Below are positions 23,575 through 51,487 of a stretch of 64,000 bases of DNA, in pieces (the first letter of the stretch is position 1; the number at the start of each line of letters is the position of its first letter). The notes under the pieces are model-generated. The model ran no database searches, was not told the DNA's origin, and saw only the letters and a list, made by a program, of their open reading frames with translations. The position numbers were made by a program, and so were the translations under genes. Source of the DNA: a virus. Location of the stretch: the IMG/VR virus record IMGVR_UViG_3300022538_000539, positions 51,400 to 115,399 of that record; one strand, 5' to 3'.

Positions 23575-23580
23575 TTTAAC

Positions 23581-23973: not shown

Positions 23974-23982
23974 TTTTATTCC

Positions 23983-24421: not shown

Positions 24422-24450
24422 ATTATACTATATTTTTACTATTTTTTTCT
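24422..24450 (-). promoter_or_regulatory. Candidate promoter (weak -35)
   Basis: TATAAT at 24422-24427 (minus strand) followed by TATATTAGGAAAT and the ATG of 24405, the same -10 context as the strong promoters. No good -35 hexamer at 17 bp (AGAAAA). Located in a 44-nt gap. Confidence 0.35.
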
Positions 24451-25127: not shown

Positions 25128-25594
25128 TTCCCACCTATAAAATATTTTAAAAAATTTACTATTGATTTTATTTTAGGTAATTGTGAGTCGCAACTCAAAT
25201 AGATATTTTTTCTAAATAATAATGAATACATACTTTTAGTTATCAAAAAAGTACCTAGTCTTATTGTATAAAGTGGAGATGTATATTTATGTTTAGTATT
25301 CAAAAAAATATAATATCTTTCTAAACCAGAAGTTGTAAAAAATCTTATTGCTCCTCCTTTTTTTAAATAATGAGTATCAACATTATTCATTTCTTTAATA
25401 TATTTGACTTCTTTAAAACGATTGATACTTTCGAGAATATCTTTTTCAGTCTTAATATATGATTTGTATGCATTATCATATATTGTGTATGCTTTGTATA
25501 CAATAGTATTTGGTTTTGTAATACGAACATTAATATATAATATAGCATTTATTGTATCTAAAAAAATCTTAAATACTTTTATTTTCTTTTTCAT
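25124..25594 (-). CDS. Expanded-superfamily protein (156 aa)
   Basis: KIFLDTINAILYINVRIT at the N-terminus and KKGGAIRFFTTSGLERYYIF, then LNTKHKYTSPLYTIR. The adjacent gene carries NKGGAIRMFATMNKGHYYIF and LNKKHKYISKLFYMR, so the pair is a duplication. The N-terminal hairpin and the R-x-F-x(n)-YY element link both to the arrays at 39908-42639 and 46341-49483. Unknown function. Confidence 0.88.
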   Translation of the reverse strand: MKKKIKVFKIFLDTINAILYINVRITKPNTIVYKAYTIYDNAYKSYIKTEKDILESINRFKEVKYIKEMNNVDTHYLKKGGAIRFFTTSGLERYYIFLNTKHKYTSPLYTIRLGTFLITKSMYSLLFRKNIYLSCDSQLPKIKSIVNFLKYFIGGK

Positions 25595-26049
25595 TTTTTT
25601 CTTCCTATAAAATATTCTATAAAATCTGAAAAATATTCTGTTTTAGGTATCATATGATTTTTTGTTAAATAAACATTGCCAAGTTTATCCTCTAATAAAC
25701 TCCTAACTTCATAAAGCTGACTTTCTCGCATATAAAAAAGTTTAGAAATATATTTATGTTTCTTGTTCAAAAAAATATAGTAATGACCTTTATTCATAGT
25801 TGCAAACATTCTTATTGCTCCTCCTTTGTTGAAATAAAAGGTATCTATACTATTTATTAATAAACAATCATCATCTTCTCTAAAAGTAATAATTTCTTCT
25901 GCAATAGATTCTACAATATCAGTGAGAAAAAAATTATCGCCAAATATATAAACAAAAAATTTATCTGATTCTTTATAATGTATACACACAGACAAAGCAT
26001 TAGTTTTTTTATTTAAAAATATATCTAATATTCTAAATGTTTCCTTCAT
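25591..26049 (-). CDS. Expanded-superfamily protein (152 aa)
   Basis: ILDIFLNKKTNALSVCIHYK is the N-terminal beta hairpin (compare KIFINKKTGNLIVVYYKY at 46816). NKGGAIRMFATMNKGHYYIF matches the neighbour at 25124. Ends with YFSDFIEYFIGRKK, again like its neighbour (SIVNFLKYFIGGK). Unknown function; 4-nt overlap with the paralog. Confidence 0.88.
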   Translation of the reverse strand: MKETFRILDIFLNKKTNALSVCIHYKESDKFFVYIFGDNFFLTDIVESIAEEIITFREDDDCLLINSIDTFYFNKGGAIRMFATMNKGHYYIFLNKKHKYISKLFYMRESQLYEVRSLLEDKLGNVYLTKNHMIPKTEYFSDFIEYFIGRKK

Positions 26050-28546: not shown

Positions 28547-28701
28547 TTTTTTTTCATCTCCTTTGATAATTTTTTAACTTCTTTTACAAATTCTTTCATT
28601 ACTGCTTGTGTCTTACTTGTTTCTACCATAAGTTTAACAAAACTTTTTGCCCATTTATTAAATTTCATAAAAGCTTCAAAATCTGTAAAATTTGTTATCA
28701 T
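28531..28701 (-). CDS. Small helical protein (56 aa)
   Basis: MITNFTDFEAFMKFNKWAKS then two Lys/Glu helices. ATGA overlap with the upstream gene (28698) and a 16-nt overlap with the next; the gap is otherwise empty. Function unknown. Confidence 0.65.
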   Translation of the reverse strand: MITNFTDFEAFMKFNKWAKSFVKLMVETSKTQAVMKEFVKEVKKLSKEMKKNWEMK

Positions 28702-29189
28702 TTTTTTATTATTAAGCTAAATAATATATCTTTTATTTTTTCTATACTAGGCACTTTTGTATAAGTATCTAAATATATAATAGTAGCACTAAATTTTGTT
28801 AATAAATCGTTTCTTATTATTTCCCATTTTTCATCTTGAATTTTAATTGGTTTATTAATTTTCTTGTTACTTACGAATTGATAATACCAATCTCTAAAAC
28901 TTTTTAATAATCTAATTTTATAATTTGCTTGTTTTATTTGACAAGAATAAATAATGCTAATTGCTATACTATCCTTAATACAAAGTTGTCTTACCATTTC
29001 ATTTATTGCCATTCCTAAATTAGCATTTTGTGGAACAAGTTTTTTTTCAACTAATTGAAAATTATCATAAGAAACCAATATACAATGTAATATATGATAT
29101 ATATTATCTTTTTTACCCTTATTTTCTTTAATAATAAAATTAAGCAAACCTGTTTCTAAATCTAAACGAATTCTTTCTATTTTAAACAC
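28698..29189 (-). CDS. Expanded-superfamily protein, isolated member (163 aa)
   Basis: IERIRLDLETGLLNFIIKEN at the N-terminus corresponds to the KIFINKKTGNLIVVYYKY hairpin at 46816, and YKIRLLKSFRDWYYQFVSNK to YKIRVFSFKDKYYKQVLH. Ends in a helix (VPSIEKIKDILFSLIIKK). Unknown function; coupled to neighbours at both ends. Confidence 0.82.
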   Translation of the reverse strand: MFKIERIRLDLETGLLNFIIKENKGKKDNIYHILHCILVSYDNFQLVEKKLVPQNANLGMAINEMVRQLCIKDSIAISIIYSCQIKQANYKIRLLKSFRDWYYQFVSNKKINKPIKIQDEKWEIIRNDLLTKFSATIIYLDTYTKVPSIEKIKDILFSLIIKK

Positions 29190-31844: not shown

Positions 31845-32570
31845 CTAAAATCCTTTTTGTATTTTTAATCTCTTCATTTGACTTTTAGATAATTCAATTA
31901 ATTCTGCAATACCATAATCCTTATGTTTTATTTTAGTAATTACTCTATTGCCATTTCTTGCCTTCAGTTCTACCATAGGTTTTAATACCATTCCTTCTGC
32001 TAAAAAATCTCCCCATTGAGATTTAAGAGTACCTGATTTAATCAATTTGATAGCATCATCAAGAGTACCTTTTCCTATAATTGGAACTACCTTTAAATCA
32101 AGTTTACTTGCTATTTCTTCTACATCATTTCTCTTTAACCACCAATCTCCTATTTTAATATCAAAAAGTATAAAATCTACTCCTTTTGGAATATATTTAC
32201 CACCACTTTTTTGAATTTTAGCACCATAACCTTCTCCATACATACAAACATCTGGAATGTCATCACTCTCTCCAATTTTAAATACTTTCAACATTTTATC
32301 TTCTATAAATATTTTATTTAATTTTGCTAATAAAAAAATCGGTATTTGTGCCTTATCAGTTCTACCTTTAAAAACTATATGTGAAACCATTAATGGATGA
32401 CTATGCCATAATATTCTAATATTTGTTCCATTTATTTTTTCAGTCCAATACCATATATTATTTGCTAAATACTCTAGCCATTCTGTACTATACTGTCCTT
32501 CCAAAAAAGTCTTATAATTATCATCAGGATTTCTTTTAAATATACTTTGTATTTTAGGATATTTAGTCAT
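31845..32570 (-). CDS. RNA ligase family protein (Rnl2-like)
   Basis: 241 residues of the covalent nucleotidyltransferase superfamily. WYWTEKINGTNIRIL holds motif I (Lys45 in K-x-N-G, the AMP acceptor). VFKGRTD fits motif Ia/III, VDFILFDIKIG motif IIIa, LAEGMVLKP motif IV, and VITKIKHKDY motif V. It would seal RNA nicks, for example host tRNA breaks made by anti-phage nucleases. Confidence 0.9.
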   Translation of the reverse strand: MTKYPKIQSIFKRNPDDNYKTFLEGQYSTEWLEYLANNIWYWTEKINGTNIRILWHSHPLMVSHIVFKGRTDKAQIPIFLLAKLNKIFIEDKMLKVFKIGESDDIPDVCMYGEGYGAKIQKSGGKYIPKGVDFILFDIKIGDWWLKRNDVEEIASKLDLKVVPIIGKGTLDDAIKLIKSGTLKSQWGDFLAEGMVLKPMVELKARNGNRVITKIKHKDYGIAELIELSKSQMKRLKIQKGF

Positions 32571-33121
32571 TTTATCTCCTTTTTTAATTTTTTAAAATAT
32601 TCATAGCTTTTAAATGCTTCAAGTTCTTTTAATATACCATTTGCTTTTGTTGGTTTATAATATTTTCCATTGCCTTGACACCAAACTTTATAATTAGGAA
32701 AGTGTTTTATAAAACAATTAACACTATTTTTTAAATCAAATAAAACATTTTCAAAATTATATCTTACTCCTTCTTCTCCATAATGTCCATAATCACAACC
32801 AACTTTAATTGCAAAAATATCTCCTATTTCATTTTTTAATACTTCATAAAAAGTTATTCCATAATGCATATCAAAATAATCTGCAAGTTTATAATCATCA
32901 TAACAATATCTACCATCAAATTTACTTTTGTAAGGTTTCAACACTAATTTTTTAAAAGTATAAGGTAGATTTTTCTTTTTAATCAAAATATAAGCATTCC
33001 ACATTGGATTAGTTTCAAAATTTAGATATTTGCTATTAGTATCAGCATATCCCCATTTAACTATTTCAGTTCGTAATCCTTTAATATATGGTTTCCAAAT
33101 TATTTTTTTAATTTTATTCAT
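32567..33121 (-). CDS. Hypothetical protein (184 aa)
   Basis: IWKPYIKGLRTEIVKWGYAD, AIKVGCDYGHYGEEGVRYNF, and VLFDLKNSVNCFIKHFPNYK. Phage-type conserved protein with no recognised domain. Coupled to the RNA ligase (4-nt overlap), so a linked role is possible. Confidence 0.82.
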   Translation of the reverse strand: MNKIKKIIWKPYIKGLRTEIVKWGYADTNSKYLNFETNPMWNAYILIKKKNLPYTFKKLVLKPYKSKFDGRYCYDDYKLADYFDMHYGITFYEVLKNEIGDIFAIKVGCDYGHYGEEGVRYNFENVLFDLKNSVNCFIKHFPNYKVWCQGNGKYYKPTKANGILKELEAFKSYEYFKKLKKEIK

Positions 33122-33461
33122 TTTTTTCTCCTTTTATTTTGCGTCTTTTTGCACACCAATTGATAATTTTTACTAATTCATCTGATGTAACATAACCTAA
33201 AGTATCATCAGGATATTTATCTGGATATAAATCCTTCATCATTTTATTTGTAATCCATCTGTGTTCTTCTCCTATCTCTCTCCATATTGCTACTTCACAA
33301 TTTAAAGAACAAAGACGACCAAATTCATCCTTCAAACAATCTTTATCTGTATAAACATCATTATTATCAGAATAAGTTCCCCAACCGAATTGAACAGATA
33401 ATAAAATATTATTCTTAAATTTAATATGAAATCCACTACCATTTCTTGTTATTGTAAACAA
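33114..33461 (-). CDS. Conserved phage protein, paralog of 49501
   Basis: 115 residues. ITRNGSGFHIKFKNNILLSV, QFGWGTYSDN, then CEVAIWREIGEEHRWIT. The gene at 49501 has ISYHNAGFFIEFKNGITIST, QFAPGTYCKN and DSEIAIM. A family often seen in phages; function unknown. Confidence 0.87.
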   Translation of the reverse strand: MFTITRNGSGFHIKFKNNILLSVQFGWGTYSDNNDVYTDKDCLKDEFGRLCSLNCEVAIWREIGEEHRWITNKMMKDLYPDKYPDDTLGYVTSDELVKIINWCAKRRKIKGEKNE

Positions 33462-35027: not shown

Positions 35028-35498
35028 TTATATTTTATTTCTTTCTATTCCTAAAATTTCTAAAATATATCCTTTATCATAATAAAATCCATTTTTTAAA
35101 TGATATTTTCCCCAAGAACATTTTTGTATATTAGGTAAATTCACATTTTTATCTACTTTATTAATTTCTGATTTATGTTTCCCTTTAATTGATTGATAAT
35201 ACTGAATTGTATCAGTACCTATTTCTTGAAGATAAAAAGGTTTCATCAATTTTAAAAATACAGATTTATCAACTATAAAAAAAGTTATATCATCTACTCT
35301 TATTGTTTTTGACCATAATGAAGGAGAATAAACTCTTTCAACATCAATCATACCTTCATCTATCAATATTTCATAAAACTTTTTATGACTACTCTGAAAA
35401 ATATATGCACAAAAATTTTTATTCCCTAAGCGTATATATGAAGTAAGAAACCTTAATTTCTTGGGTAAATCTTTTAATTTCATTTTATTAATCACCAA
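35028..35498 (-). CDS. Expanded-superfamily protein, isolated member (156 aa)
   Basis: TSYIRLGNKNFCAYIFQSSH and the C-terminal block with YYQSIKGKHKSEINKV parallel YKGYIKPNTKRSFYIFKY and CSKKFQGNYNEIN at 40700. A late GFYYDKGYILEI echoes the GLYFDRGYISP start at 41660. Unknown function; overlaps deformylase gene by 11 nt. Confidence 0.8.
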   Translation of the reverse strand: MVINKMKLKDLPKKLRFLTSYIRLGNKNFCAYIFQSSHKKFYEILIDEGMIDVERVYSPSLWSKTIRVDDITFFIVDKSVFLKLMKPFYLQEIGTDTIQYYQSIKGKHKSEINKVDKNVNLPNIQKCSWGKYHLKNGFYYDKGYILEILGIERNKI

Positions 35499-35913
35499 TT
35501 AAAATTCCATTAAGATGGTCAATTTCATGTTGAATTACTATTGCCATCAAATTTTTAGTTTGAAATGTAAATATCTTATTATTTACATTTTTAGCAATTA
35601 CTTTAATTTCTCTTGCTCTATTTATTGTATAACTCTTGCCAGGAAGACTTAAACATTCTTCCATCATACTTATTTTTCCCTTTTTCCAAACAATAACAGG
35701 ATTAATCATTTCTATTATTTTACTATTCTTTCTAATGACAATTATCCTTTTTAGTATTCCAATTTGATTAGATGCAAGCCCCAAAGCATTATGCTCTTGT
35801 AAAGTATCTTTTAAATTTTCAACTAATTTACAAACACTACTGTCTATTTTATTTACTTTTTTTGCTTTTTCTCTTAACAAAGGAGAATCAAAAATTAAAA
35901 TTTTCTTAATCAC
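35488..35913 (-). CDS. def: Peptide deformylase
   Basis: 141 residues. Motif 1 GLASNQIG, motif 2 EECLSLPG (Cys metal ligand) and motif 3 QHEIDHLNG (two His ligands and Glu) are all intact. It removes the formyl group from nascent proteins at the ribosome exit. Shorter than cellular enzymes, lacking the C-terminal helix, as in other phage deformylases. Start appears to be GTG. Part of the translation-related set with bL27, bS22-like protein and the tmRNA-like RNA. Confidence 0.95.
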   Translation of the reverse strand: MIKKILIFDSPLLREKAKKVNKIDSSVCKLVENLKDTLQEHNALGLASNQIGILKRIIVIRKNSKIIEMINPVIVWKKGKISMMEECLSLPGKSYTINRAREIKVIAKNVNNKIFTFQTKNLMAIVIQHEIDHLNGILIGD

Positions 35914-39721: not shown

Positions 39722-39785
39722 CTATTATAATATAGTATAATTATATTAAGATATAATAATATATATACTTATATTATAATATATT
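39722..39785. repeat. Nearly pure A/T low-complexity tract
   Basis: About 64 bp made of TATA/ATTATA repeats with very few G or C. It lies between the gene at 39336 and a small membrane gene whose end it overlaps. Several TATAAT-like hexamers occur on both strands but none has a credible -35 at 16-18 bp, so a promoter is not called. Confidence 0.6.
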
Positions 39786-39917
39786 TTTATCCTTTTTCTT
39801 TTTAGATATTTTAAAAGATTTTATAATTAATACTAACCATCCTATGAATACTAATATGCTAATTAATATACTAAAAAATAAAAAAGATAATTGTAATATA
39901 CCTATTGTTATGGGCAA
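39774..39917 (-). CDS. Small membrane protein (47 aa, TTG start)
   Basis: TTG 39917 with SD AGAGGTG. PITIGILQLSFLFFSILISI then LVFIGWLVLIIKSFKISKKK: two hydrophobic stretches and a basic C-terminus. Overlaps the upstream gene by 10 nt. Unknown function. Confidence 0.6.
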   Translation of the reverse strand: MPITIGILQLSFLFFSILISILVFIGWLVLIIKSFKISKKKKDKNIL

Positions 39918-40465
39918 TATTTTTCACCTCTTTCCATTTTTAAAAGTTGAATTATTAAATCAGGATGTTCTGTGGTATTTAAGTAGTAGTGTACTTGAAA
40001 ATATTTTTCTAAAATCTCAACAGTCTCTCTATTTAATGATTCTGGTATTGTTTGCATTTTTCCTCTACCTTTTGATGTTATCATTTGTATATAAATATTT
40101 TTTCCCCTAAATAATTTTATTGCTAAATCTTTTTCAAAATCGTGTATTGATTTATTCATAGAATATCTAACTATATTTATTTTTTCAGGTTTTAATAAAA
40201 TGAATTCTATAAAATTTTTTATTCGTTGTTTTTGATTTTCACCAGATATTTGGGCTACATCAAATATATTTTCAACTGAAATAAATAAATAATGAGTATT
40301 TGATTTTTCATGTTTAAAAATATATATTATATCATTTTCAAATGATGTCATGAGTTCTTGATAATGTTGCTTGTGCATATCCCAAAATGCTTCAATAAAC
40401 TTTAATTCATATGGTATATCTTTAAATTTTACATAGTCAAATAAACTTTTAAATGTCAATGCCAT
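39908..40465 (-). CDS. Expanded-superfamily protein (185 aa)
   Basis: SNTHYLFISVENIFDVAQIS, KINIVRYSMNKSIHDFEKDL, RGKNIYIQMITSKGRGKM, and ILEKYFQVHYYLNTTEHPDL. The YIQMITSKGRGK block matches TYIQAITKNNKTKT at 42163. Last member of the left array; unknown function. Confidence 0.83.
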   Translation of the reverse strand: MALTFKSLFDYVKFKDIPYELKFIEAFWDMHKQHYQELMTSFENDIIYIFKHEKSNTHYLFISVENIFDVAQISGENQKQRIKNFIEFILLKPEKINIVRYSMNKSIHDFEKDLAIKLFRGKNIYIQMITSKGRGKMQTIPESLNRETVEILEKYFQVHYYLNTTEHPDLIIQLLKMERGEKYCP

Positions 40466-40707
40466 TTTCCTTTCTCATCTTTTAATAAAAAACCTATATT
40501 TTGTGTTTTAAATATTTCTTCTAAAATTATTTCTAATTTTCTCAATTTTGTTGAATCTTTTTCTTGCCCAAAATATACATGAACATAATAATCATATTTG
40601 TTATTTATGTTATCCTTTTTATTAATTATTGTTCTGCTTATAGGCAAATAAAATGATATTATTTTTAATATATTATTTATATATTCTTTAATATTTTTTT
40701 CATCCAT
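40456..40707 (-). CDS. Small alpha/beta family protein (dispersed family)
   Basis: 83 residues. INNILKIISFYLPISRTII, KYDYYVHVYFGQEKD, KLEIILEEIFKTQNIGFLLK. Close to 30299 and 19039. Embedded in the left paralog array with overlaps on both sides. Unknown function. Confidence 0.87.
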   Translation of the reverse strand: MDEKNIKEYINNILKIISFYLPISRTIINKKDNINNKYDYYVHVYFGQEKDSTKLRKLEIILEEIFKTQNIGFLLKDEKGKWH

Positions 40708-41194
40708 TTTTATTTTTTAAATTAAAATATTTTTTTATAGTGCTAATACTGTAAAAATCTGAATCAGTTATTTTGAGACCAATCCAACTGTAAAATCCTT
40801 TTTTTCCTGTATCAAAGTAAGTATAAGTCAATGATTGTAATAAGTCAAATTTTTCTGTATTTATTTCGTTGTAATTACCTTGAAATTTTTTACTACATAT
40901 TTGTGTAAATTGGGATTTTTTATTTTTAACTATTTCTATAAATAATGGATTAGATTGTTTAGAATGTAAAGGATGAAAACATGTACACATTCTTATTGTA
41001 TCTATTTCTATAAATCTAGGAGGACACTTTGGATATTCACCATCAATACCATTGTATATATCAACATAATTATCTGTTAGAATATTTCCATATTCTACAA
41101 TACAAAAACGTGTTTCATCTTTATATTTAAAAATATAAAAACTACGTTTTGTATTTGGTTTTATGTATCCTTTATAAAAATATACATCCTTCAT
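40700..41194 (-). CDS. Expanded-superfamily protein (164 aa)
   Basis: MKDVYFYKGYIKPNTKRSFY, IFKYKDETRFCIVEYGN, PPRFIEIDTIRMC, FIEIVKNKKSQFTQICSKKF. The next gene begins MKNLYFYKGYIAPNENYNCY, IFKHTNKAYLLVAEY and continues in the same order, so this is a tandem duplication. Unknown function. Confidence 0.88.
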   Translation of the reverse strand: MKDVYFYKGYIKPNTKRSFYIFKYKDETRFCIVEYGNILTDNYVDIYNGIDGEYPKCPPRFIEIDTIRMCTCFHPLHSKQSNPLFIEIVKNKKSQFTQICSKKFQGNYNEINTEKFDLLQSLTYTYFDTGKKGFYSWIGLKITDSDFYSISTIKKYFNLKNKNG

Positions 41195-41195
41195 A

Positions 41196-41663
41196 TTATT
41201 TCTCAGATTTGAAATTAAAAAGGTCTTTTAAATCATCTAAAATATATTTTGTTTTGCCAAATATACTAAACAAATGGTAAAAAATTTTTCGTAGTTTATA
41301 AACTTTTTCTTTATTTATTTTTTTATATTTTTCACAGAATTGTTTGCTATACATTTGTAGAAAATATGTTTTATCAGATGTTTCTATTATTTCTATCATA
41401 AATTTTACATTTGAAAAAATACTATTAAATGCATAAAAATCAATTCTTTTAATTTCTACAAGATTAGGATGTTCATTTGCTGTAATGTGTCCTAACCACG
41501 AATCTATATACATTTCATCCATTGCTTTTACATCAGTCAATTTATATTGTTTATCTCTATATTCAGCAACTAATAAATATGCTTTGTTTGTATGTTTAAA
41601 AATATAACAGTTATAATTTTCATTTGGTGCTATATATCCTTTATAAAAATACAAATTTTTCAT
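41196..41663 (-). CDS. Expanded-superfamily protein (155 aa)
   Basis: YFYKGYIAPNENYNCYIFKH, HPNLVEIKRIDFYAFNSIF, IEIIETSDKTYFLQMYSKQF. Pairs with 40700 over the whole length. Stop and start almost touch the neighbours (1-4 nt). Unknown function. Confidence 0.88.
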   Translation of the reverse strand: MKNLYFYKGYIAPNENYNCYIFKHTNKAYLLVAEYRDKQYKLTDVKAMDEMYIDSWLGHITANEHPNLVEIKRIDFYAFNSIFSNVKFMIEIIETSDKTYFLQMYSKQFCEKYKKINKEKVYKLRKIFYHLFSIFGKTKYILDDLKDLFNFKSEK

Positions 41664-42166
41664 AATGAATCCTTTTTGTCTAATATTCTTCTTATAAAAA
41701 AACTATCAATTTTGTGTGGATATTTACTATCATTCATAGTAAGATATGTTTTGAAATTAATTATCAAATCATGATGTTGTTTAGAAGTAATTTTTTTAAT
41801 TCCATTTATTATTTTATTACGACTATATACTGTTGCATATAAATTGTTCTTTTCTGTTATTAAGGTTTCTATTATAATACTTTTTATATCCACAATACTT
41901 AATTCAGAATTTGCCAACATAAAAGAACATTTTTTTATATACATAAAATTTGTATCGTGTTTACACTTTGCTTCAAAAAATGCTTCAGAATACTTACTAT
42001 TTTTTAGTTCATAAAATATAAGTAATTTATTTTCATATAACTCAAATATATATTTATTTTTTTTACCACTTCTAAATACATAATATATTAAATTATGTTT
42101 TGGAGAAATATATCCTCTATCAAAATATAATCCTTGTGGCAAATCATATAAAGTAATTTCTTTCAT
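41660..42166 (-). CDS. Expanded-superfamily protein (168 aa)
   Basis: GLYFDRGYISPKHNLIYYVF, KNKYIFELYEN, SIVDIKSIIIETLITEKNNL, YATVYSRNKIINGIKKITSK. Same block order as 40700 and 41196 (F-x-x-GYI-x-P ... YxF ... Y-x-x-x-x-S-(K/R)). Unknown function. Confidence 0.87.
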   Translation of the reverse strand: MKEITLYDLPQGLYFDRGYISPKHNLIYYVFRSGKKNKYIFELYENKLLIFYELKNSKYSEAFFEAKCKHDTNFMYIKKCSFMLANSELSIVDIKSIIIETLITEKNNLYATVYSRNKIINGIKKITSKQHHDLIINFKTYLTMNDSKYPHKIDSFFIRRILDKKDSL

Positions 42167-42639
42167 ATTTTTTCTACAATCTTTTTAATATTTGATACTT
42201 TAGCAGTATATATATTATTAAATACATGTTGTCTACCAGTATCTATTAATAATTTGATTAAATCATTATGTTTTTTACTACCATTAAGTTTTGTTATTGT
42301 TTTTGTTGTTTTTGTTTTATTATTTTTTGTAATTGCTTGTATGTATGTTTGTCCATTTGATTCGTCTATAAATACTCTAACTTTTATATAATTTTTTTTA
42401 ATATTACCTAATATAAAAACATTTGTCATTGTAGATATTAAGTATCCTTTTTTAATTAAAGAATTAGATTTGTTTTCATAATATTTTGAAGTACGCAATG
42501 TGTTTTTAAAATTTGATTCATCTTCCATTTCTAAACCTATATAGAATTCATTAGAATATTCTATATATTGGAGTTCATCTAAAAATATTATTGTTAATAA
42601 TGTTGTTCTTGGTTTAAAATATATTTTACAACTAAACAT
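42163..42639 (-). CDS. Expanded-superfamily protein (158 aa)
   Basis: KIYFKPRTTLLTIIFLDELQ is the N-terminal hairpin; YIKVRVFIDESNGQTYIQAI then TKNNKTKTTKTIT is the central R-x-F ... Y-x-Q block. It links the right array (INKKTG type) and the left array (KGYIxPN type) into one superfamily. It directly follows the VWA gene stop at 42640. Confidence 0.85.
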   Translation of the reverse strand: MFSCKIYFKPRTTLLTIIFLDELQYIEYSNEFYIGLEMEDESNFKNTLRTSKYYENKSNSLIKKGYLISTMTNVFILGNIKKNYIKVRVFIDESNGQTYIQAITKNNKTKTTKTITKLNGSKKHNDLIKLLIDTGRQHVFNNIYTAKVSNIKKIVEKI

Positions 42640-44328
42640 TTATTTTCTAATCCTAAATACTTTTTTAAATAAATTAATTAATGCTTGTCCTAATTCATTT
42701 ATTTTCCTAATTAGAGTAAAATTCTGTCCAAAACTTTCTTTTAATGTATCTACATTTGTATCATCTCCTACACCAATTGCTGTATATAGAATTTTAGGGT
42801 ATTTGTGAATATATTCTCTCATAGCAATTCTACCTGTATCTCCTGTATCGTTTTCGCCATCTGTTATTAATACAAAAATTTTATCTTTTTCTGGTCTTTT
42901 TTCTAATAAATGACTTCCATAAACAAAAGCAGGATATGTAGGAGTACTACCATGTGAAGTTATACTAACAATTTGTTTTTTAACTTTTGGAGATAACAAT
43001 TCATGAAATTTTTTAATTGGTATAATAATACAAATGCCTCCCATATCATAGTATCCTATAATATTAAATTTAATTTTTAGATTTTCTAATAATTTCCCAA
43101 ACAGTATCATAGTATGTCGTTCAGTTTCTAATTTATCTTGTGTAATACTACCTGATAAATCTATTAAAAAAGACCATACCATATTATATTTTTTCGGTTC
43201 TAATCTTCTTTCAAAAATTCTGTCGTGTTCCAAACTTCCTGTTATCCATCTACCAACTACTCTTATATTTATTCTACTGCCACTCCTTTGATTATTTTCA
43301 AATGTATCTCTTTTACTTTTTTGTAGAAGTTGTTTTAAGATAGTCAATAATTTAATATAATTACCACCCATTTTCTTTTCATATTGTTGATAATTATCAA
43401 TATCTGATGATGGTCGAATTATTTGATATTCCAATTCTTCTATTTCTTTTGGAGATTTTCTTATGGTTATAGAATAATATTCATCATATTTTTGTTGACT
43501 GTAATTATCTTTTTGGGCAATATTGCCTTTTTTAATTTCTTTTAAAATAGCAGGTAATAAAATTTCTGTTAGAACTTTCATTACTTCTTCATCCATTTCA
43601 AAAGTGCCTTGACTACCCTTTTTACCTTTCCCTTTCCCTTGACCACTACCTTTTCTTTTTAATTCACTTTGGAAATAACCTTCTTTTTCAAGTGTTTTAA
43701 AGAATGGAAAAGATTTATCAACTAAATCAATTATACTATTTAATTTCGCAAACTTTTCTATTTTATTTTTATATTTTCTTAAAGTCTTAATAACTCTTTT
43801 GCTATAATTTGGAAGTATAATACCATAAGGAAGAGAATACATACCTAATGCCAAATCAAGGTCATCTTTAAATTGTTGTTTTTTCTTTGGTAATTTTTTG
43901 TGAACTTTTTTTCTAATTGTTTTTACTACTTCTAAAATATTGCCTTGTATATAAGGCACAGTTCCTATATATGTGTTAGTTAGTATTCGTTCTACTCGTA
44001 CATCTTCTATTGGATTAATAAAGAAAGGAAACCATGGATTTTTTTCAAGATTTTCCATATATTCAAATATAGTTTTATCTCCTACATGCATTTGAGTTAA
44101 TAAAGCATGAGCACATTCATGAAGTAAAAATCCTTTTATATCCTTTATTTTTCCACTCATTAATCTGTCTAATGGCAAATAAATATTTTTACCATCATAT
44201 GCTGGTGTACCAAATTTAATACGGATTTCACTTTCAGAAAAGATACTTGCAAAATTTTCAATTATTGGAAGTATTTTCTTTAATTTTTTTATATCTTGTT
44301 TATTCACTTTCCATAAACTCCCTACCAT
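42640..44328 (-). CDS. Metallopeptidase-like plus VWA domain protein (DUF2201-type)
   Basis: 562 residues. The N-terminal domain has GFLLHECAHALLTQMH (H-E-x-x-H, about residues 70-74). The middle is basic with a Gly/Lys linker (KGSGQGKGKGKKGSQG). The C-terminal VWA domain has FLIDLSGSITQDK (MIDAS D-x-S-x-S, about residue 390) and LITDGENDTGDTG. This is the partner type of MoxR AAA ATPases (CobS/CobT-like chaperones that insert metals or remodel complexes). GTG 44307 is an alternative start. Overlaps the MoxR gene by 29 nt. Confidence 0.9.
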   Translation of the reverse strand: MVGSLWKVNKQDIKKLKKILPIIENFASIFSESEIRIKFGTPAYDGKNIYLPLDRLMSGKIKDIKGFLLHECAHALLTQMHVGDKTIFEYMENLEKNPWFPFFINPIEDVRVERILTNTYIGTVPYIQGNILEVVKTIRKKVHKKLPKKKQQFKDDLDLALGMYSLPYGIILPNYSKRVIKTLRKYKNKIEKFAKLNSIIDLVDKSFPFFKTLEKEGYFQSELKRKGSGQGKGKGKKGSQGTFEMDEEVMKVLTEILLPAILKEIKKGNIAQKDNYSQQKYDEYYSITIRKSPKEIEELEYQIIRPSSDIDNYQQYEKKMGGNYIKLLTILKQLLQKSKRDTFENNQRSGSRINIRVVGRWITGSLEHDRIFERRLEPKKYNMVWSFLIDLSGSITQDKLETERHTMILFGKLLENLKIKFNIIGYYDMGGICIIIPIKKFHELLSPKVKKQIVSITSHGSTPTYPAFVYGSHLLEKRPEKDKIFVLITDGENDTGDTGRIAMREYIHKYPKILYTAIGVGDDTNVDTLKESFGQNFTLIRKINELGQALINLFKKVFRIRK

Positions 44329-45403
44329 AAACTGCTTCTAATATCTCATAAGCAGTAACTTTACTTTCTTTACTTAATTTATCTAATATACTTAATTCTA
44401 ATGCAGATTTTAATCCTACATCCAATAAATTAAGTACATTTAGTAAACTACGTGTCCCTATTACTAAATTGATTTTACCTTCCCCAAGAGCATATCTCAT
44501 CTTTTGGGCAAATAATATTAATCTTTCTATTAATGCCTTTTTTATTTTTGGAAAATGAGTTTTTAATATTTTGTATTCTTCTTTTTTGTCTGGAAAACCC
44601 ATTTTAATCCAAACTAATCTGCTTTTATCTGCCTGATTTAACATTTCAATTCCACCATAAAGATGAGTATGTTCTGCAGGATTCATAGTTGCAAATATTA
44701 ATATATTGTTTGGCAGTATTAATACTTCATGATTTTCATCATCTAATTGGAGATTCTTTCTTTTATCAAAAAGACTTCTTGTACTTAATTGGATAGATTT
44801 GCTCGCGGCATTCCATTCGTCTAAACAAAATACAAAATAACTATTTGGATATTTTTTTGCTTGTCGTATATAGTGTGGTAGAATACCATCCCACCATACC
44901 AATTTTCCATCAAGTGGTTGTGGATAACCTAAAATACTATCAGGTATTCTTGCTCCATTAAATTGTACAAATATAAATGGAGCATTTAAGAGTTGTGCTA
45001 TGTGTCTAACCATTTCAGTTTTTCCTATACCAGTATGTCCTTCGAGAGCAATTGATTTATTTTTCACAATAGCCATCCAAACTTTTTTCATTCTTTTTTT
45101 ATTCTCTATATATACAATATCTTTTGGAACTAAATGTTCAAATTCTTTTGGTACTTTTCCTATAGAAATTTTATGTTTTCCAATTGTAATATATTTATCT
45201 GTTTTTGTATATTTTATTTTTTTCTTAATTACCTTTTTTTCAGGTTCTGTAAATTGTTCTGCTCCACTTTCAAAACCTTCACACCCATTCAAGATTCCTT
45301 GCAATTTACCATGATTTTCGGAGATAGGAATCTCATATTGCTTACAGTATTTTTGTTTTCTATCATAATTTTTACACTTTAAGCAAAGATTTTCTTCTCC
45401 CAT
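44300..45403 (-). CDS. MoxR-like AAA+ ATPase with N-terminal Cys-rich segment
   Basis: 367 residues. N-terminal CLKCKNYDRKQKYCKQYE...C may bind zinc. The AAA+ core has ALEGHTGIGKTEMVRHIAQL (Walker A), SYFVFCLDEWNAAS (Walker B, D-E), ILIFATMNPAEHTHLYGG (sensor 1) and later arginine-finger region. It would power the VWA partner downstream. Such pairs mature or dismantle protein complexes; in phages the target is not known. Promoter at 45569 lies upstream. Confidence 0.92.
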   Translation of the reverse strand: MGEENLCLKCKNYDRKQKYCKQYEIPISENHGKLQGILNGCEGFESGAEQFTEPEKKVIKKKIKYTKTDKYITIGKHKISIGKVPKEFEHLVPKDIVYIENKKRMKKVWMAIVKNKSIALEGHTGIGKTEMVRHIAQLLNAPFIFVQFNGARIPDSILGYPQPLDGKLVWWDGILPHYIRQAKKYPNSYFVFCLDEWNAASKSIQLSTRSLFDKRKNLQLDDENHEVLILPNNILIFATMNPAEHTHLYGGIEMLNQADKSRLVWIKMGFPDKKEEYKILKTHFPKIKKALIERLILFAQKMRYALGEGKINLVIGTRSLLNVLNLLDVGLKSALELSILDKLSKESKVTAYEILEAVYGREFMESE

Positions 45404-45422
45404 AATTTACTCCTTTTAATTT

Positions 45423-45551
45423 TTATAATTTTCCTTTAATAATATCTATTACTACTTTGCCTATAAATAATACAGACAATGTCATAAGTATTGCAAGAAT
45501 AAATAAAAAATATATTACAAAAATTGCATAAATACTTAATATTATTTTCAT
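45423..45551 (-). CDS. Small membrane protein (42 aa)
   Basis: MKIILSIYAIFVIYFLFILA then ILMTLSVLFIGKVVIDIIKG: one or two hydrophobic spans. First ORF after the promoter at 45569. Unknown function. Confidence 0.7.
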   Translation of the reverse strand: MKIILSIYAIFVIYFLFILAILMTLSVLFIGKVVIDIIKGKL

Positions 45552-45568
45552 TTTTCTCCTTCAATATA

Positions 45569-45597
45569 ATTATACTACATATTTATATAAAAGTAAA
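45569..45597 (-). promoter_or_regulatory. Sigma70-type promoter
   Basis: -35 TTTACT (45592-45597), 17-bp spacer, -10 TATAAT (45569-45574), reading toward the MoxR/VWA genes and the left paralog array. Same TATAATTATATTGAAGG downstream context as other promoters here. Confidence 0.75.
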
Positions 45598-45599
45598 AT

Positions 45600-45782
45600 T
45601 TATTTTTTTAAATATTGTATAATTTCTGTAATTGTAGAAGTAAGATAACCAATTGCTATTCCTATTAATACTAATTCAAAAAAAGGTACATTTATAAGAA
45701 TATTTTTTCTAATCACAGTGTATAAAATAATTATAGTAATTGTTAAGATTATGTCAAAAAATTTCATTTTATAACCTTTCAT
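45600..45782 (-). CDS. Small membrane protein (60 aa)
   Basis: KFFDIILTITIIILYTVIRK and FFELVLIGIAIGYLTSTITE are two hydrophobic spans. SD AAGGAG before ATG 45782. Unknown function. Confidence 0.75.
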   Translation of the reverse strand: MKGYKMKFFDIILTITIIILYTVIRKNILINVPFFELVLIGIAIGYLTSTITEIIQYLKK

Positions 45783-45798
45783 TTATTTCTCCTTTTTA

Positions 45799-45978
45799 TT
45801 AATTATTTTTTTTACTTAATTTCTTTTTAATTAGTGCAATTATAAATATAGGGATAATACAAATAAAAAATATACTTGCTATTACAAAAAAGACCAATGT
45901 TACAGGAAATAAAAGTATTTGTAATAGTACTTTTTCTGTTTTACTTAATTTTTCCATTCCTTGTATTTCTATACTCAT
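45799..45978 (-). CDS. Small membrane protein (59 aa)
   Basis: MSIEIQGMEKLSKTEKVLLQ, then a long hydrophobic region (ILLFPVTLVFFVIASIFFIC) and basic tail KKKLSKKNN. SD AAAGGAGG. Directly downstream of the right paralog array. Unknown function. Confidence 0.72.
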   Translation of the reverse strand: MSIEIQGMEKLSKTEKVLLQILLFPVTLVFFVIASIFFICIIPIFIIALIKKKLSKKNN

Positions 45979-46341
45979 TTATCCTCCTTTATTAAAATCT
46001 TTATCTAAAAAATAACAAATAGTTTTTTTATCCATTTTGTAATCCTTACTAAAAACTGTTCTTAATTTATCTGTATAATCTATTTGTTTTTCATTTTTTG
46101 GGTTGTATATAAAATCTACAAATATATTATTTTTATTTTTAATTCCTACCCAAATTAAATCCTTTCGATTAGCATATAAATAAGTATCAAATGCATATTT
46201 ATTTACATCATATGTATTTGCTGGTTCTGTAGTCTTTATATCAAGTTTAAAAATATATCTATCTTTGTATTCTACAAATATTGTATAAAAATTTCTTTTA
46301 GAAGTGTGATTTTGTCCAAAATGAAATACATATATTGTCAT
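45979..46341 (-). CDS. Expanded-superfamily protein (120 aa)
   Basis: MTIYVFHFGQNHTSKRNFYT, IFVEYKDRYIFKL, then a C-terminal helix. The start resembles the KGYIxPNxxxxxYIFK type of the left array. Overlaps the next paralog by 1 nt. Unknown function. Confidence 0.82.
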   Translation of the reverse strand: MTIYVFHFGQNHTSKRNFYTIFVEYKDRYIFKLDIKTTEPANTYDVNKYAFDTYLYANRKDLIWVGIKNKNNIFVDFIYNPKNEKQIDYTDKLRTVFSKDYKMDKKTICYFLDKDFNKGG

Positions 46342-46814
46342 TATAAATCCTTTAACATTGAAAATAAATTAAAATCACGAATATATTGTGAAGTTTTTAT
46401 ATTTTTAAAAATTGTATTGTTAAATTCTTTACTTATATTTAGCATATCTTTGGTTTCCATATTAAAAACATCTTTAGATTTCATATTTTTTCCTGTTATT
46501 TCTTGAAAATAAATAACTCTTGTTCCTGTTGTATTTAATATTTGTCTATAATATTTGTTTCTAAAAGAAAATATTCTTCTTTTTTCACCTTGATAATTTA
46601 GCATAATTAAATTACTTGTTCGCATCCAATTATTATCCAATTGTGTTTTTATATATTGTGTAATTGGAATGACTGAATACCCAAACTGTAAACTCAAAGG
46701 TTGCATTTTATTTTTAGATTGGCTATATATTTCTAAAAAATCATTTTTCCAATCACAATATATTATTATTAAGTCTCCTGTTTTTTTATTTATAAATATT
46801 CTATTTATTATCAT
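46341..46814 (-). CDS. Expanded-superfamily protein (157 aa)
   Basis: INRIFINKKTGDLIIIYCDW (hairpin), IKTQLDNNWMRTSNLIML, then RRIFSFRNKYYRQILNTTGT and IYFQEITGKN. The neighbour at 46816 has KIFINKKTGNLIVVYYKY, IKAQLDQNWLQASKLTIF and IRVFSFKDKYYKQVLH: a clear recent duplicate pair. Confidence 0.9.
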   Translation of the reverse strand: MIINRIFINKKTGDLIIIYCDWKNDFLEIYSQSKNKMQPLSLQFGYSVIPITQYIKTQLDNNWMRTSNLIMLNYQGEKRRIFSFRNKYYRQILNTTGTRVIYFQEITGKNMKSKDVFNMETKDMLNISKEFNNTIFKNIKTSQYIRDFNLFSMLKDL

Positions 46815-46815
46815 T

Positions 46816-47295
46816 TTATAAATCCCATAATATTTTTAATAAATCAGAATTGTAAGTATGTCCTGCGGTTTGGACATTTATAATTTTATTTTTTCTATTT
46901 TGAATTTCATCCTCATAATCCACTTTTGAAATTCTTACAAACCAAATATCATTTGGATATCTATGTAGTACTTGCTTGTAATATTTATCTTTAAAAGAAA
47001 ATACTCTTATTTTATAATGTTCATGTTCGAATATAGTTAATTTACTTGCTTGTAGCCAATTCTGGTCTAATTGTGCTTTTATATAATTTGTATAAAATAC
47101 AAAAGTGTATCTTATATTATTATCTATTAGAACAATCTTTTTTTTATGTTGATTGAATATGTGTGCTTCTCTTACAATTAAATTTTTCCAACCACCTTTT
47201 GAAAATCCACCTATAATATTTTGATTTTTATATTTGTAATATACTACAATTAAATTACCTGTTTTTTTATTTATAAATATTTTGCTTATATTCAT
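46816..47295 (-). CDS. Expanded-superfamily protein (159 aa)
   Basis: Best-conserved member of the right array: KIFINKKTGNLIVVYYKY, YIKAQLDQNWLQASKLTIFE, KIRVFSFKDKYYKQVLHRYP. Used here as the reference for motif comparisons. No known domain; no signal peptide. Confidence 0.9.
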   Translation of the reverse strand: MNISKIFINKKTGNLIVVYYKYKNQNIIGGFSKGGWKNLIVREAHIFNQHKKKIVLIDNNIRYTFVFYTNYIKAQLDQNWLQASKLTIFEHEHYKIRVFSFKDKYYKQVLHRYPNDIWFVRISKVDYEDEIQNRKNKIINVQTAGHTYNSDLLKILWDL

Positions 47296-47304
47296 CTTCT
47301 TTTT

Positions 47305-47712
47305 TTAAAATAATTCTAAAAATCCTGATGTAGACCAAATATCCCATCTATTAGATATTCTATAATAATGATTATAATTTTTTTTGTTTAATTGATAATA
47401 TAAATAATTATATTGCTTACCTGTAAGCGAAATTGTTTCAAGAGAATTTGATATACAATCTAATTTTTGTACATAATATTTATTTCTAAAACTAAAAAGT
47501 CTAATTTTAAATGTTTTTTCTTTATCACTAAAAGTAGTTAAACAAGTTGCTGGAATATGAATATTGTAATTTAGTGCATCTATACTATCTAAATAAAAAA
47601 AGTGTTTTTCTTCAACATTGTATATTTGATAAGGTCGTGTAGAATTATTTATTTTGTATATAAAATAAATATTATTTCTTTTTTTATTTATAAGAATTTT
47701 ATATAAATACAT
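47305..47712 (-). CDS. Expanded-superfamily protein (135 aa)
   Basis: YKILINKKRNNIYFIYKINN and FKIRLFSFRNKYYVQKLDCI, then ISLTGKQYNYLYYQLNKKNY. Same two diagnostic blocks as 46341 and 46816, shorter middle. Unknown function. Confidence 0.88.
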   Translation of the reverse strand: MYLYKILINKKRNNIYFIYKINNSTRPYQIYNVEEKHFFYLDSIDALNYNIHIPATCLTTFSDKEKTFKIRLFSFRNKYYVQKLDCISNSLETISLTGKQYNYLYYQLNKKNYNHYYRISNRWDIWSTSGFLELF

Positions 47713-47719
47713 ATTTCTC

Positions 47720-48142
47720 CTAAAAATTTTTTAAAAAATCTTCTATATTATACATTGTTAATTTATCACCTTTTCGTATTTTAAATTTTATATAAGGTTG
47801 ATGACCTTCAAGATACTTTTTATACTCATTGTATGAAATTAATGTAGTATTACTTTCATTAGATTGTGTGTATTTTTTATTAACATAACATTGGTCAGTC
47901 ATTGTTAGTATATATCTTTGTTTATGTGTATTGTGTATAATTGTGTGTATATCTTGTATTTCCATTATTTTTTTATTTTTTTTGATTTGCTGTGCTTTAA
48001 AAAATTTCTTGTAATTACGGATTTCTGAATGAGCAACTAATCTAATTAATTGATTATCCTTGAAATAATGCAAACCATACTTATTTTCTATAATAAAATA
48101 AATATTGCTTTTTTTATCCATAAGAATATCATGTACTAACAT
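47720..48142 (-). CDS. Expanded-superfamily protein, diverged (140 aa)
   Basis: HDILMDKKSNIYFIIENKYG keeps the N-terminal hairpin; the central block is degenerate (QRYILTMTDQCYVNKKYTQ). Then LISYNEYKKYLEGHQPYIKF, as the Lys/Tyr helix in 47305 and 48520. Unknown function. Confidence 0.84.
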   Translation of the reverse strand: MLVHDILMDKKSNIYFIIENKYGLHYFKDNQLIRLVAHSEIRNYKKFFKAQQIKKNKKIMEIQDIHTIIHNTHKQRYILTMTDQCYVNKKYTQSNESNTTLISYNEYKKYLEGHQPYIKFKIRKGDKLTMYNIEDFLKNF

Positions 48143-48151
48143 TTTATTCCT

Positions 48152-48523
48152 TTATATTATTTGTTTGCCATTTATAAATTTTATAAATTCTGATTGTCGT
48201 ACAGTACCATTTGTATATTCTGTGTATTGATTTCTATATATAGGAACATAACCTTTTTGTAATTTTTCATATATTTTTTCTGATAGTATTTTGAAAACTT
48301 CATCTTTTTTTAAATCCATTTTCATTACAGTTCTTAATTTTTTAATATCTTTCATAATTTTGCTCCAGTAGAATAAAATATTATAATATGGTTCTCCCAT
48401 ATTATAATGCACTTGTACTTCAAATCCCCACATTTTGAAATGACCATCCCAAATATGAAAATAAAGTATTCTATTTAAACTCCAGTCTCTTTTTAATTTT
48501 ATCTCTATATCTAATTTATTCAT
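48152..48523 (-). CDS. Hypothetical protein within the right array (123 aa)
   Basis: LKRDWSLNRILYFHIWDGHF, KMWGFEVQVHYNMGEPYYNI, and a helical end. The superfamily blocks are not visible, so it may be an unrelated insertion or a highly diverged member. Overlaps the next gene by 4 nt. Confidence 0.82.
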   Translation of the reverse strand: MNKLDIEIKLKRDWSLNRILYFHIWDGHFKMWGFEVQVHYNMGEPYYNILFYWSKIMKDIKKLRTVMKMDLKKDEVFKILSEKIYEKLQKGYVPIYRNQYTEYTNGTVRQSEFIKFINGKQII

Positions 48524-48984
48524 CTCAAAAAATACTCCATAAATTTTTTACTTATTGCAACTGTATCATTTTTTAAATTTAAAAATACTTCTTGTTTACT
48601 ATAATCTGAGTTTTCTCGTACCTCTTTTATTATATTATCATATTCTTTTTTATTATAATTATATTTTTTCTTTGTTTTCCCATCAATTGTAAAATAGTGT
48701 CCAAAATATTTTCCATTTTTTGTTTTAAAAACTCTTGCCATATTAATTGGTAGAATTTCATGTTTCCATGTATACATTTCTGTTAATTCTAAATATTTTT
48801 TTATTTGATGTTTTACATAATGCAAAGTACTATTGATTTCTTCACTTAAAGTATGAATACTATATTTTTTATCACCATTCGTTATACACAACTTATGTGT
48901 TTCTACATTGTATATTATACTCAGAAAATCATCTTTTTTTTCATTATAAAAAATGCTAAATATAATATATGGGTGTTTTTTCAT
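48520..48984 (-). CDS. Expanded-superfamily protein (154 aa)
   Basis: IIFSIFYNEKKDDFLSIIYN hairpin, INMARVFKTKNGKYFGHYFT for the R-x-F ... Y-F element, KKYNYNKKEYDNIIKEVREN helix. Unknown function. Confidence 0.85.
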   Translation of the reverse strand: MKKHPYIIFSIFYNEKKDDFLSIIYNVETHKLCITNGDKKYSIHTLSEEINSTLHYVKHQIKKYLELTEMYTWKHEILPINMARVFKTKNGKYFGHYFTIDGKTKKKYNYNKKEYDNIIKEVRENSDYSKQEVFLNLKNDTVAISKKFMEYFLR

Positions 48985-48991
48985 TATACTC

Positions 48992-49483
48992 CTATTGAGT
49001 TATATTTATAAAATCTTTTTGTATTCTTGTAGAAAGTGTTTTAAAAAATATATTATTCAGATAACTCACAATACTTTTATCTGTAATATTTGAATCCAAA
49101 TCCATTTCCCAATAACTACTACACAACTGAAAAATATCAGTACATTGTTTAACAGTTGTTTGATTTATTTTATTTAAAACTTTTCCACCTTTTATAAAAT
49201 TATAAAAATACTTATTTTTTATTCTCATTAATCTTATAGAGATATGTTTAAAATAACATATTCGCATATTATTTACTATTTCGTATCCTGTTTTTTTATA
49301 ATATGCTATGTTTAAATTTTTTTGTTTTTCTTTTATTAAATTATGTATAGGCAATATATTACCTATTATATCTATTTTTTTTATATCAAATCGTTTTTTT
49401 TGATATACGCCATAAGATAAATATATCAAAAAATCGTTAGTTTGCTTATTAAATAATATTTTTTCTATTTGATATGTTATCAT
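48992..49483 (-). CDS. Expanded-superfamily protein, first of the right array (163 aa)
   Basis: EKILFNKQTNDFLIYLSYGV hairpin, SIRLMRIKNKYFYNFIKGGK central block, then a helical end. The ATG lies 1 nt from a copy of the AAACTGTAAACC element (49485-49496) and has no visible SD, unlike its neighbours. Unknown function. Confidence 0.85.
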   Translation of the reverse strand: MITYQIEKILFNKQTNDFLIYLSYGVYQKKRFDIKKIDIIGNILPIHNLIKEKQKNLNIAYYKKTGYEIVNNMRICYFKHISIRLMRIKNKYFYNFIKGGKVLNKINQTTVKQCTDIFQLCSSYWEMDLDSNITDKSIVSYLNNIFFKTLSTRIQKDFINITQ

Positions 49484-49500: not shown

Positions 49501-49863
49501 TTATCTTCTTTTAAATTTTAATTTCTTAATTTCATCTTTTAATTCTGGAATTACATAATTTATAAATACATAAATAAAAATCATTCCCCATTCTTCTGGT
49601 AAAATATGTATCATAATATCATTGTTTAAATCTCTTTTATAAAGTCTTTTATAAACTTCATCAGTAATAAATGTTTTATCTTTCATAATTGCTATTTCAC
49701 TATCTTGACAAAATACTCTTTTCATTCCATCTTTTTGAATTTCATCATAATTTTTACAATAAGTTCCAGGTGCAAATTGAGTAGAAATTGTTATACCATT
49801 TTTAAACTCTATAAAAAAACCAGCATTGTGATATGATATTTTAAAACATCCTTCTTTTTTCAT
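49501..49863 (-). CDS. Conserved phage protein, paralog of 33114
   Basis: 120 residues. KISYHNAGFFIEFKNGITIS, TQFAPGTYCKN, CQDSEIAIMKDKTFIT: same order as 33114 (GFHIKFKNN, QFGWGTYSDN, CEVAIW). C-terminal part differs, ending in a basic helix. Unknown function. Confidence 0.87.
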   Translation of the reverse strand: MKKEGCFKISYHNAGFFIEFKNGITISTQFAPGTYCKNYDEIQKDGMKRVFCQDSEIAIMKDKTFITDEVYKRLYKRDLNNDIMIHILPEEWGMIFIYVFINYVIPELKDEIKKLKFKRR

Positions 49864-50408: not shown

Positions 50409-50930
50409 TTATATTGCTCTCTCAGTATTTTTCAATAGACAATTAGGACATTCTTTTTCATGCAATAGACGTATCTCTTTTGCATAAATACCTCTTATTT
50501 CATAATAAGCATTACACAACCTGCTGAAAATCTCTGCTCCTGGGTTAAAATAAGTATCTTTTGCCTTCTCATAAAGATTTTTTATTTCTATCGCAAGACT
50601 TTTATTAGAATGTTCACTATCATAAAGAATGTTGCGTACATTAGAAAAAATGTCTTGAACTTTCAAAAATTCCTTCCATTGTTTTTCATGACGCAAAACC
50701 CACGCTTCATCATATAGTTTATGAGCATCAACAAGTGCTTTTGGAAATTCTCCTTTAACAGGTTTAATTAATTTCAATCTTAATTCTGCTTTTGGAACAT
50801 CTTGTGGATAATGTTCATTTGGTTCAGTTGCAATTCTTTGATGATGACAAATAGCATCTTTATATTCTTCATCACTCAAGTATTCAGCAAGCATTAAATA
50901 ATAAGTGTGCCAATACCATTTTTTACTCAT
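50409..50930 (-). CDS. Hypothetical protein (173 aa)
   Basis: KKWYWHTYYLMLAEYLSDEE, HQRIATEPNEHYPQDVPKAE, LRHEKQWKEFLKVQDIFSNV, and a C-terminal ECPNCLL. Helical, aromatic-rich, codon use slightly less AT-rich than neighbours. No family recognised. Overlaps the YgjP-like gene by 4 nt. Confidence 0.83.
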   Translation of the reverse strand: MSKKWYWHTYYLMLAEYLSDEEYKDAICHHQRIATEPNEHYPQDVPKAELRLKLIKPVKGEFPKALVDAHKLYDEAWVLRHEKQWKEFLKVQDIFSNVRNILYDSEHSNKSLAIEIKNLYEKAKDTYFNPGAEIFSRLCNAYYEIRGIYAKEIRLLHEKECPNCLLKNTERAI

Positions 50931-51487
50931 TTCTCTCCTTCTTGTAAAAGTTTATATGTATATTTTTCTAATAATTTTTTATTTTTTAAAACATTTGAAT
51001 AAATTATTTCAAGAGTAAACCAAAATCTTTTTGGATGTTTAGAAATTTTAAAGTGTAAAATTTCATGTGCTATTACATATTCTAATAGATTTCGTGGAAC
51101 ATATTGTAATTTTGTATTTAAAGCAATTAAATTTTTACTAATATAACATCTGCCCCAATTATTTTTATTAGTGAAAAATTCATAATTTGGTTTCTTTAAT
51201 GCTAATTTTTTTGAATACTTTTTAATAAAAAATCTAATATCTTTATTAAAATTTCCATTAGAATATTCTGGTAGTTTTTTACAAGTGTTTATATATTCAT
51301 TATTTTTTAAAACCCATTCTGTATTTTTTTTAATAAAATCTATACCATTTCCTAAAATTTTTTTACTACCACTAATTATAAAAACACCATTCCATTTCAT
51401 ACTTATTTGTTTTTTAGTGGGATTTTTATAATTTTTATAAACAACTCTATATTCAATTTCTTGTCCATTAAGTATTATTGTTTTCAT
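50927..51487 (-). CDS. YgjP-type zinc metallopeptidase (DUF45/WLM clan)
   Basis: 186 residues. N-terminal YRVVYKNYKNPTKKQISMKW beta region, then NNWGRCYISKNLIALNTKLQ and LLEYVIAHEILHFKISKHPK-RFW. The W-G-x-C, L-N, and H-E-x-x-H ... H motifs match YgjP/DUF45 proteins. Zinc ligands are complete. Substrate unknown. Confidence 0.92.
   Translation of the reverse strand: MKTIILNGQEIEYRVVYKNYKNPTKKQISMKWNGVFIISGSKKILGNGIDFIKKNTEWVLKNNEYINTCKKLPEYSNGNFNKDIRFFIKKYSKKLALKKPNYEFFTNKNNWGRCYISKNLIALNTKLQYVPRNLLEYVIAHEILHFKISKHPKRFWFTLEIIYSNVLKNKKLLEKYTYKLLQEGEK

Follow-up and report, generated by a model that had tools for sequence, protein, structure and literature searches.

Why does a phage carry two runs of small, strongly divergent genes on either side of a MoxR ATPase and its partner protein? 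The question is raised by a window of 64,000 nucleotides (nt) from an AT-rich tailed phage, positions 51400-115399 of the virus record IMGVR_UViG_3300022538_000539, which has 115,399 bases in total. The original prediction placed two arrays of paralogs, taken to be fast-evolving, around a MoxR and metallopeptidase/VWA pair, and the position of the two gene runs is borne out. Six open reading frames (ORFs) lie on the left (39908-42639) and eight on the right (45979-49483), all on the minus strand. We favour, tentatively, a lineage-specific expansion in which small accessory proteins interact with the host by binding host or defence targets.

By all-against-all BLAST, paralogy is significant only within one trio in each array and within one pair outside them; genes are named here by their first coordinate. 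The right run is made up of 45979, 46341, 46816, 47305, 47720, 48152, 48520 and 48992, all co-directional. The trio 46341 (46341-46814, 157 residues), 46816 (46816-47295, 159 residues) and 47305 (47305-47712, 135 residues) is right-type, with E-values of 4e-20 for 46341/46816 and 5e-4 for 46816/47305. Three right-type proteins lie outside the arrays: 25124 (25124-25594, 156 residues), its paralog 25591 (25591-26049, 152 residues; E 3e-20) and 28698 (28698-29189, 163 residues), also on the minus strand. The left run consists of 39908, 40456, 40700, 41196, 41660 and 42163, again co-directional. Its own trio of left-type proteins is 40700 (40700-41194, 164 residues), 41196 (41196-41663, 155 residues) and 41660 (41660-42166, 168 residues), with E-values of 2e-12 for 40700/41196 and 2e-4 for 41196/41660.

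How far does the family extend beyond these trios? An N-terminal hairpin and a central R-x-F-S-F-x-x-K-Y-Y-x-Q element had been put forward as shared by both arrays. Because these hairpin patterns were drawn up from the proteins under test, and several profiles were used, more weight belongs to the leave-out tests, whose p-values carry no correction. Leave-clade-out hairpin scoring recovers eight proteins (46341, 46816, 47305, 48992, 25591, 48520, 47720 and 28698; p 0.0005-0.02 each), and the N-terminal hairpin stands for the right type. The central element in its strict form is found in just three proteins. Hidden Markov models (HMMs) were compared with shuffled decoys. The right-trio HMM recovers 28698 at E 0.0023, a level reached by 1/6160 decoys, and the two hairpins of this protein score p 0.019 (first) and p 0.0015 (second). 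A leave-out HMM recovers 48520 (48520-48984, 154 residues), a probable right-type protein, at E 0.0025, a level reached by 0/6160 decoys; here the hairpin scores are p 0.005 (first) and p 0.45 (second). Another right-type member, 48992 (48992-49483, 163 residues), aligns with the right trio by hhalign at E 0.014 over 82 columns and has a first hairpin at p 0.001. The first hairpin of 25591 scores p 0.001 and the second p 0.08, and 25124 is not recovered when taken alone (p 0.33). A probable right-type protein, 47720 (47720-48142, 140 residues), has the first hairpin only (p 0.0145).

Other ORFs in the two runs are less readily assigned. On the right, 45979 (45979-46341, 120 residues) and 48152 (48152-48523, 123 residues) have no significant family link. 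On the left, 42163 (42163-42639, 158 residues) is possibly left-type, with a non-significant link, and the membership of 39908 (39908-40465, 185 residues) is also non-significant (second hairpin p 0.019 only). A separate family accounts for 40456 (40456-40707), which matches 30299 at E 2e-14 and belongs with 19039, 20289, 30299 and 49860 to five dispersed proteins of 76-95 residues. Outside the arrays, 35028 (35028-35498, minus strand, 156 residues) is probably left-type, with a phmmer E of 0.009 to 41660. The expected membership, four or five genes on the left, about seven on the right and four outlying, some 16 in all, is therefore revised: a trio holds on each side, 40456 drops out, 39908, 45979 and 48152 are unlinked, the outlying pair 25124/25591 is retained, and more weakly 28698, 48520, 48992 and 47720 are kept in the right type and 35028 in the left. 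By sequence there are 8-9 right-type and 3-5 left-type proteins, possibly of one fold. Tight packing of the genes was confirmed, but the overlaps of 1-8 nt that had been described occur at some junctions only, and the spacing runs from 10-nt overlaps to 17-nt gaps.

The two types are not joined by sequence. HMMs built from each trio, from the pair and from singletons gave no significant left-right link when they were searched against all window ORFs and the decoys. Comparison of subfamily profiles by hhalign was also non-significant between left and right (trio against trio, E 0.32; left trio against the 25124/25591 pair, 0.05). The proposal that 42163 links the left and right types was not upheld, as no bridging was seen by HMM, hhalign or position-specific scoring matrix.

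Do the two types nevertheless have a fold in common? AlphaFold2 models were built from non-overlapping sequence sets, 41196 with four others for the left type, an alignment that takes in the uncertain members 35028 and 42163, and 46341 with two others for the right type. The left model has a predicted local distance difference test score (pLDDT) of 77.4 and a predicted template modelling score of 0.72. Its first half is predicted to contain strands at 5-12, 17-24, 27-36 and 39-48 and a helix at 50-63, and its second half strands at 69-79, 88-95, 100-106 and 114-116 and helices at 118-133 and 138-148. Confidence is low for the right model (pLDDT 52), which has predicted strands at 2-9, 15-21, 26-33 and 36-39 and a helix at 48-61, followed by strands at 63-65, 70-74, 77-84, 87-93 and 102-106 and helices at 113-116, 121-133 and 151-156. 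The predicted order of elements largely agrees between the two, four strands and then a helix, twice, and the two motifs sit on matching hairpins in both models, one on strands 1-2 and the other at 88-106 (left) or 77-93 (right). As far as models of this quality allow, this suggests that the left and right types share one common fold. The structure-prediction check proposed earlier is thus favourable as to element order, with a weak right model.

The same element order invites a different explanation, in which the array proteins would be nucleic-acid-binding accessory proteins of PUR/Whirly-like fold, with two units of four strands and a helix, that act in phage replication or in shutdown of host transcription. 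Both models show this unit twice, and PUR-alpha repeats align with both at Z 4.3-4.6 over 38-62 residues. A guide-RNA-binding complex (2gje) is among the Foldseek matches of the right type, and the proteins are basic (median isoelectric point 9.4) and rich in aromatic residues. Against this, neither model has a Foldseek match in the PDB below E 0.001, the PUR-alpha scores are at background level and cover one repeat only, and CYTH barrels score as high or higher. The profiles PurA (PF04845) and DUF3276 (PF11680) find no match at E<=10 across the whole record, and isoelectric point and net charge show no difference from those of the other small proteins of the phage (p 0.21-0.26). We regard a nucleic-acid-binding role as unlikely. 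The CYTH fold gives the best Z in the structure comparison (5.8-6.2), but this too is background level and has no sequence match. The hallmark of CYTH/triphosphate tunnel metalloenzymes is an N-terminal ExExK motif, which none of the 17 proteins in the arrays and outside them contains. Structural matches to XRCC4/PAXX-like proteins were likewise at background level, a BFVD match at 7.7e-4 was rejected (template modelling score 0.26, root-mean-square deviation 14.7 A), and a sequence search of PDB chains gave nothing credible.

Relatives of the family were sought by scanning contigs of viruses and genomes for patterns and by searching phages with tblastn, and none was found in IMG/VR, 84,980 bacterial and archaeal genomes or 50,697 phage records. 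Six DNA matches to RxFSFxxKYYxQ were short chance frames. There was no convincing match in Pfam, in PHROG (best E 0.0018) or in PADLOC, which was run on four array-type proteins, and a match of 25124 to EFF-AFF (E 8e-4), below that family's cut-off, was taken as chance. ORF lists, which also served for the part of the record beyond the window, give portal, tape-measure-like, terminase, DnaE-like polymerase, RecA, helicase, primase and sliding-clamp genes. The best viral matches found are 31-37% identical for the polymerase and 29-30% for the terminase, so no close relative of the phage is at hand. No closely comparable arrays were found in the literature, and the hyperplastic regions of phage 0305phi8-36 were set aside as a parallel since they concern virion genes. 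In Bacillus phage G, PMC7824862 describes a lineage-specific expansion of about 35 zinc ribbons, a parallel in that a single small protein family is present in many copies and restricted to one phage. The protein is a different one and the copies here are fewer; the array proteins hold 0-5 cysteines and have no zinc-ribbon match. The family itself is new to every collection searched, whereas small-family expansion within one phage lineage is, on that account, already known.

What, then, is the role of the pair that lies between the arrays? The MoxR/CobS-type AAA+ ATPase (44300-45403, minus strand, 367 residues) matches AAA_5 (3.6e-13) and AAA_3 (3e-6), both over cut-off, as well as phrog_249 (2.9e-32), and has a Walker A motif GHTGIGKT at 122, a Walker B motif FCLDE and a sensor ATMN at 238. 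Its neighbor (42640-44328, minus strand, 562 residues) is a metallopeptidase-like and VWA co-chaperone with matches to PF00092 (3.6e-7), phrog_1576 (2.6e-16) and phrog_5298 (6.8e-10). The VWA metal-ion-dependent adhesion site is made up of DLSGS at 390 and TDG at 489, and the N-terminal metallopeptidase-like domain is predicted from HECAH at 70 and EDVRVER at 108, which align with two viral relatives. By these motifs, 44300/42640 is the known phage chaperone/co-chaperone pair. AAA/vWA gene pairs are known from haloviruses (PMC7911831). The section of PMC7824862 on group 2.2 jumbo phages describes a MoxR AAA+/vWA pair with an N-terminal metallopeptidase and a proposed role in assembly; there, as here, an AAA+ gene adjoins a VWA gene with an HExxH domain, and all the motifs are present in this phage. 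The record here is 115 kb, possibly incomplete, and orphan paralog arrays flank the pair, a feature that this section does not mention. The same pair is annotated as CobS/CobT or as ATPase/von Willebrand protein in Roseobacter phage CRP-810, Rhizobium phage RHEph10 and Gordonia phage GMA6, whose ATPases are just 23-29% identical to 44300 and which have no annotated arrays. In related viral loci the pair adjoins replication genes, in RHEph10 a DnaE-like polymerase. As for the large CobN subunit of a cobaltochelatase CobNST, the listed ORFs offer no candidate other than a polymerase of 1214 residues and a tape-measure-like protein of 1041 residues, in a record that may be incomplete.

The original prediction coupled the arrays to the AAA machine, for instance as a diversified panel of inhibitors or clients. 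On this reading the array proteins would be clients, adaptors or inhibitors of MoxR/VWA, for example as targets of remodelling by the ATPase or of cleavage by the metallopeptidase-like domain. The genes are adjacent and share a direction, with a gap of 0 nt between the VWA gene and 42163, and published accounts of related systems take the VWA protein to be an adaptor for the AAA chaperone (PMC7911831; PMC7824862). However, MoxR and VWA genes occur together at 15 other viral loci, a set in which some loci may be close to one another, and in no case do neighboring small paralogs accompany them; what few paralog pairs these loci have involve larger proteins or genes that are not adjacent. Moreover, 25124, 25591, 28698 and 35028 sit 7-17 kb from the pair, and the other tandem families of the phage have no MoxR neighbor. 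The coupling is not supported, and a client or inhibitor role appears improbable. Because small paralog arrays are found at 0/15 of the other loci, their adjacency to MoxR/VWA is probably local to this phage. Still more speculative would be a diversified panel of new fold working with MoxR/VWA, in which each protein marks or shields one host target for remodelling or cleavage; we consider this highly improbable. It could also be asked whether the array proteins serve as parts of the virion or in its assembly, for instance as minor fibre or decoration proteins, and are folded or processed by the pair, in line with the role in virion assembly and structural-protein processing proposed for jumbo phage MoxR-vWA in the section already cited (PMC7824862). 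The arrays, however, are on the minus strand, as are nearly all window genes, far from the plus-strand portal and tape measure genes, and have no structural PHROG match, and such a role is very unlikely.

Duplication is not special to the array sites; tandem copies of small genes occur throughout the window. There are 17 small-protein paralog pairs in the window, 9 of them adjacent, whereas no single locus among 35 viral controls exceeds 3 pairs and 1 adjacent pair; the control loci are each 18 kb or more and shorter than the window, but every 21-kb third of the window still has 2-5 adjacent pairs. Are the copies then largely neutral products of a high rate of tandem duplication in an AT-rich genome, with no specialised role for each? 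That many unrelated small families are tandemly duplicated would fit this. Yet every copy is an intact frame in DNA of 20-24% GC (20-30% across the window), and conserved residues persist despite near-saturated synonymous positions. In paralog comparisons the same codon is used at 75-79% of identical residues, and saturation alone would give 65-72%. The duplications therefore appear old, and the ratio of nonsynonymous to synonymous substitution between paralogs is unusable, which leaves the rapid evolution and arms race of the original prediction conjectural. Intact copies and persisting residues at near saturation point to old, selectively retained copies, and there is little probability that the arrays are largely neutral.

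The host-interaction explanation would run as follows. One orphan family of small (about 120-170 residues), strand-rich proteins expanded in an uncharacterised tailed phage by tandem duplication within co-directional, probably co-transcribed gene runs, which would have given rise to two clusters along with a small number of dispersed members. Divergence may then have gone so far that two hairpins alone stay recognisable, and each protein, we infer, would bind a different host or defence component via a variable surface, while the MoxR/VWA pair between the clusters would be a separate known chaperone/co-chaperone merely sharing the gene run. The supported expansion of a divergent small-protein family counts in favor of this: paralogy within the clusters, leave-out recovery, the agreeing element order, tandem duplication across the window, the lack of arrays at the 15 loci and the lack of a CYTH motif. 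An absence of relatives and family matches is usual for accessory genes and is counted likewise. Tyr and Phe are more frequent in the array proteins than in the remaining phage proteins of this size (p 0.0003), which is consistent with binding surfaces. Three points weigh on the other side: the array proteins match no known inhibitor, the left and right types are joined by predicted element order only, with a low-confidence right model, and the basic, aromatic composition equally suits nucleic-acid binding. An orphan family at roughly a dozen copies in one phage is of interest because new host-interaction proteins arise from expansions of this kind. The known MoxR/VWA pair can here be told apart from its neighbors, and adjacency is no ground for shared function.

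A promoter scan gave no enrichment compared with shuffles. Very short hydrophobic ORFs, possibly membrane peptides (grand average of hydropathy above 1), lie beside the arrays at 45600-45782, 45799-45978 and 39774-39917. Of two dispersed paralogs, 33114-33461 and 49501-49863 (E 5e-11), one lies immediately upstream of the right array; a Pfam scan of one copy gave no match. The right array also has a YgjP-like metallopeptidase (PF01863, 1.6e-20) a few genes upstream, at 50927-51487. Other tandem small-protein families are found at 4800-5741, 21408-21965 and 23164-24405, and a dispersed family of very short proteins (10994, 34358, 55654 and 37247) has a common N-terminal stretch (E 4e-16 to 4e-3). 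A peptide deformylase (PF01327, 1.4e-37) is encoded at 35488-35913. An RlaP-type RNA-repair nucleotidyltransferase (PF10127, 1.5e-26) at 24450-25127 and an RNA ligase (PF09414, 6e-16) at 31845-32570 may form an RNA-repair set against host RNA-cutting defences.

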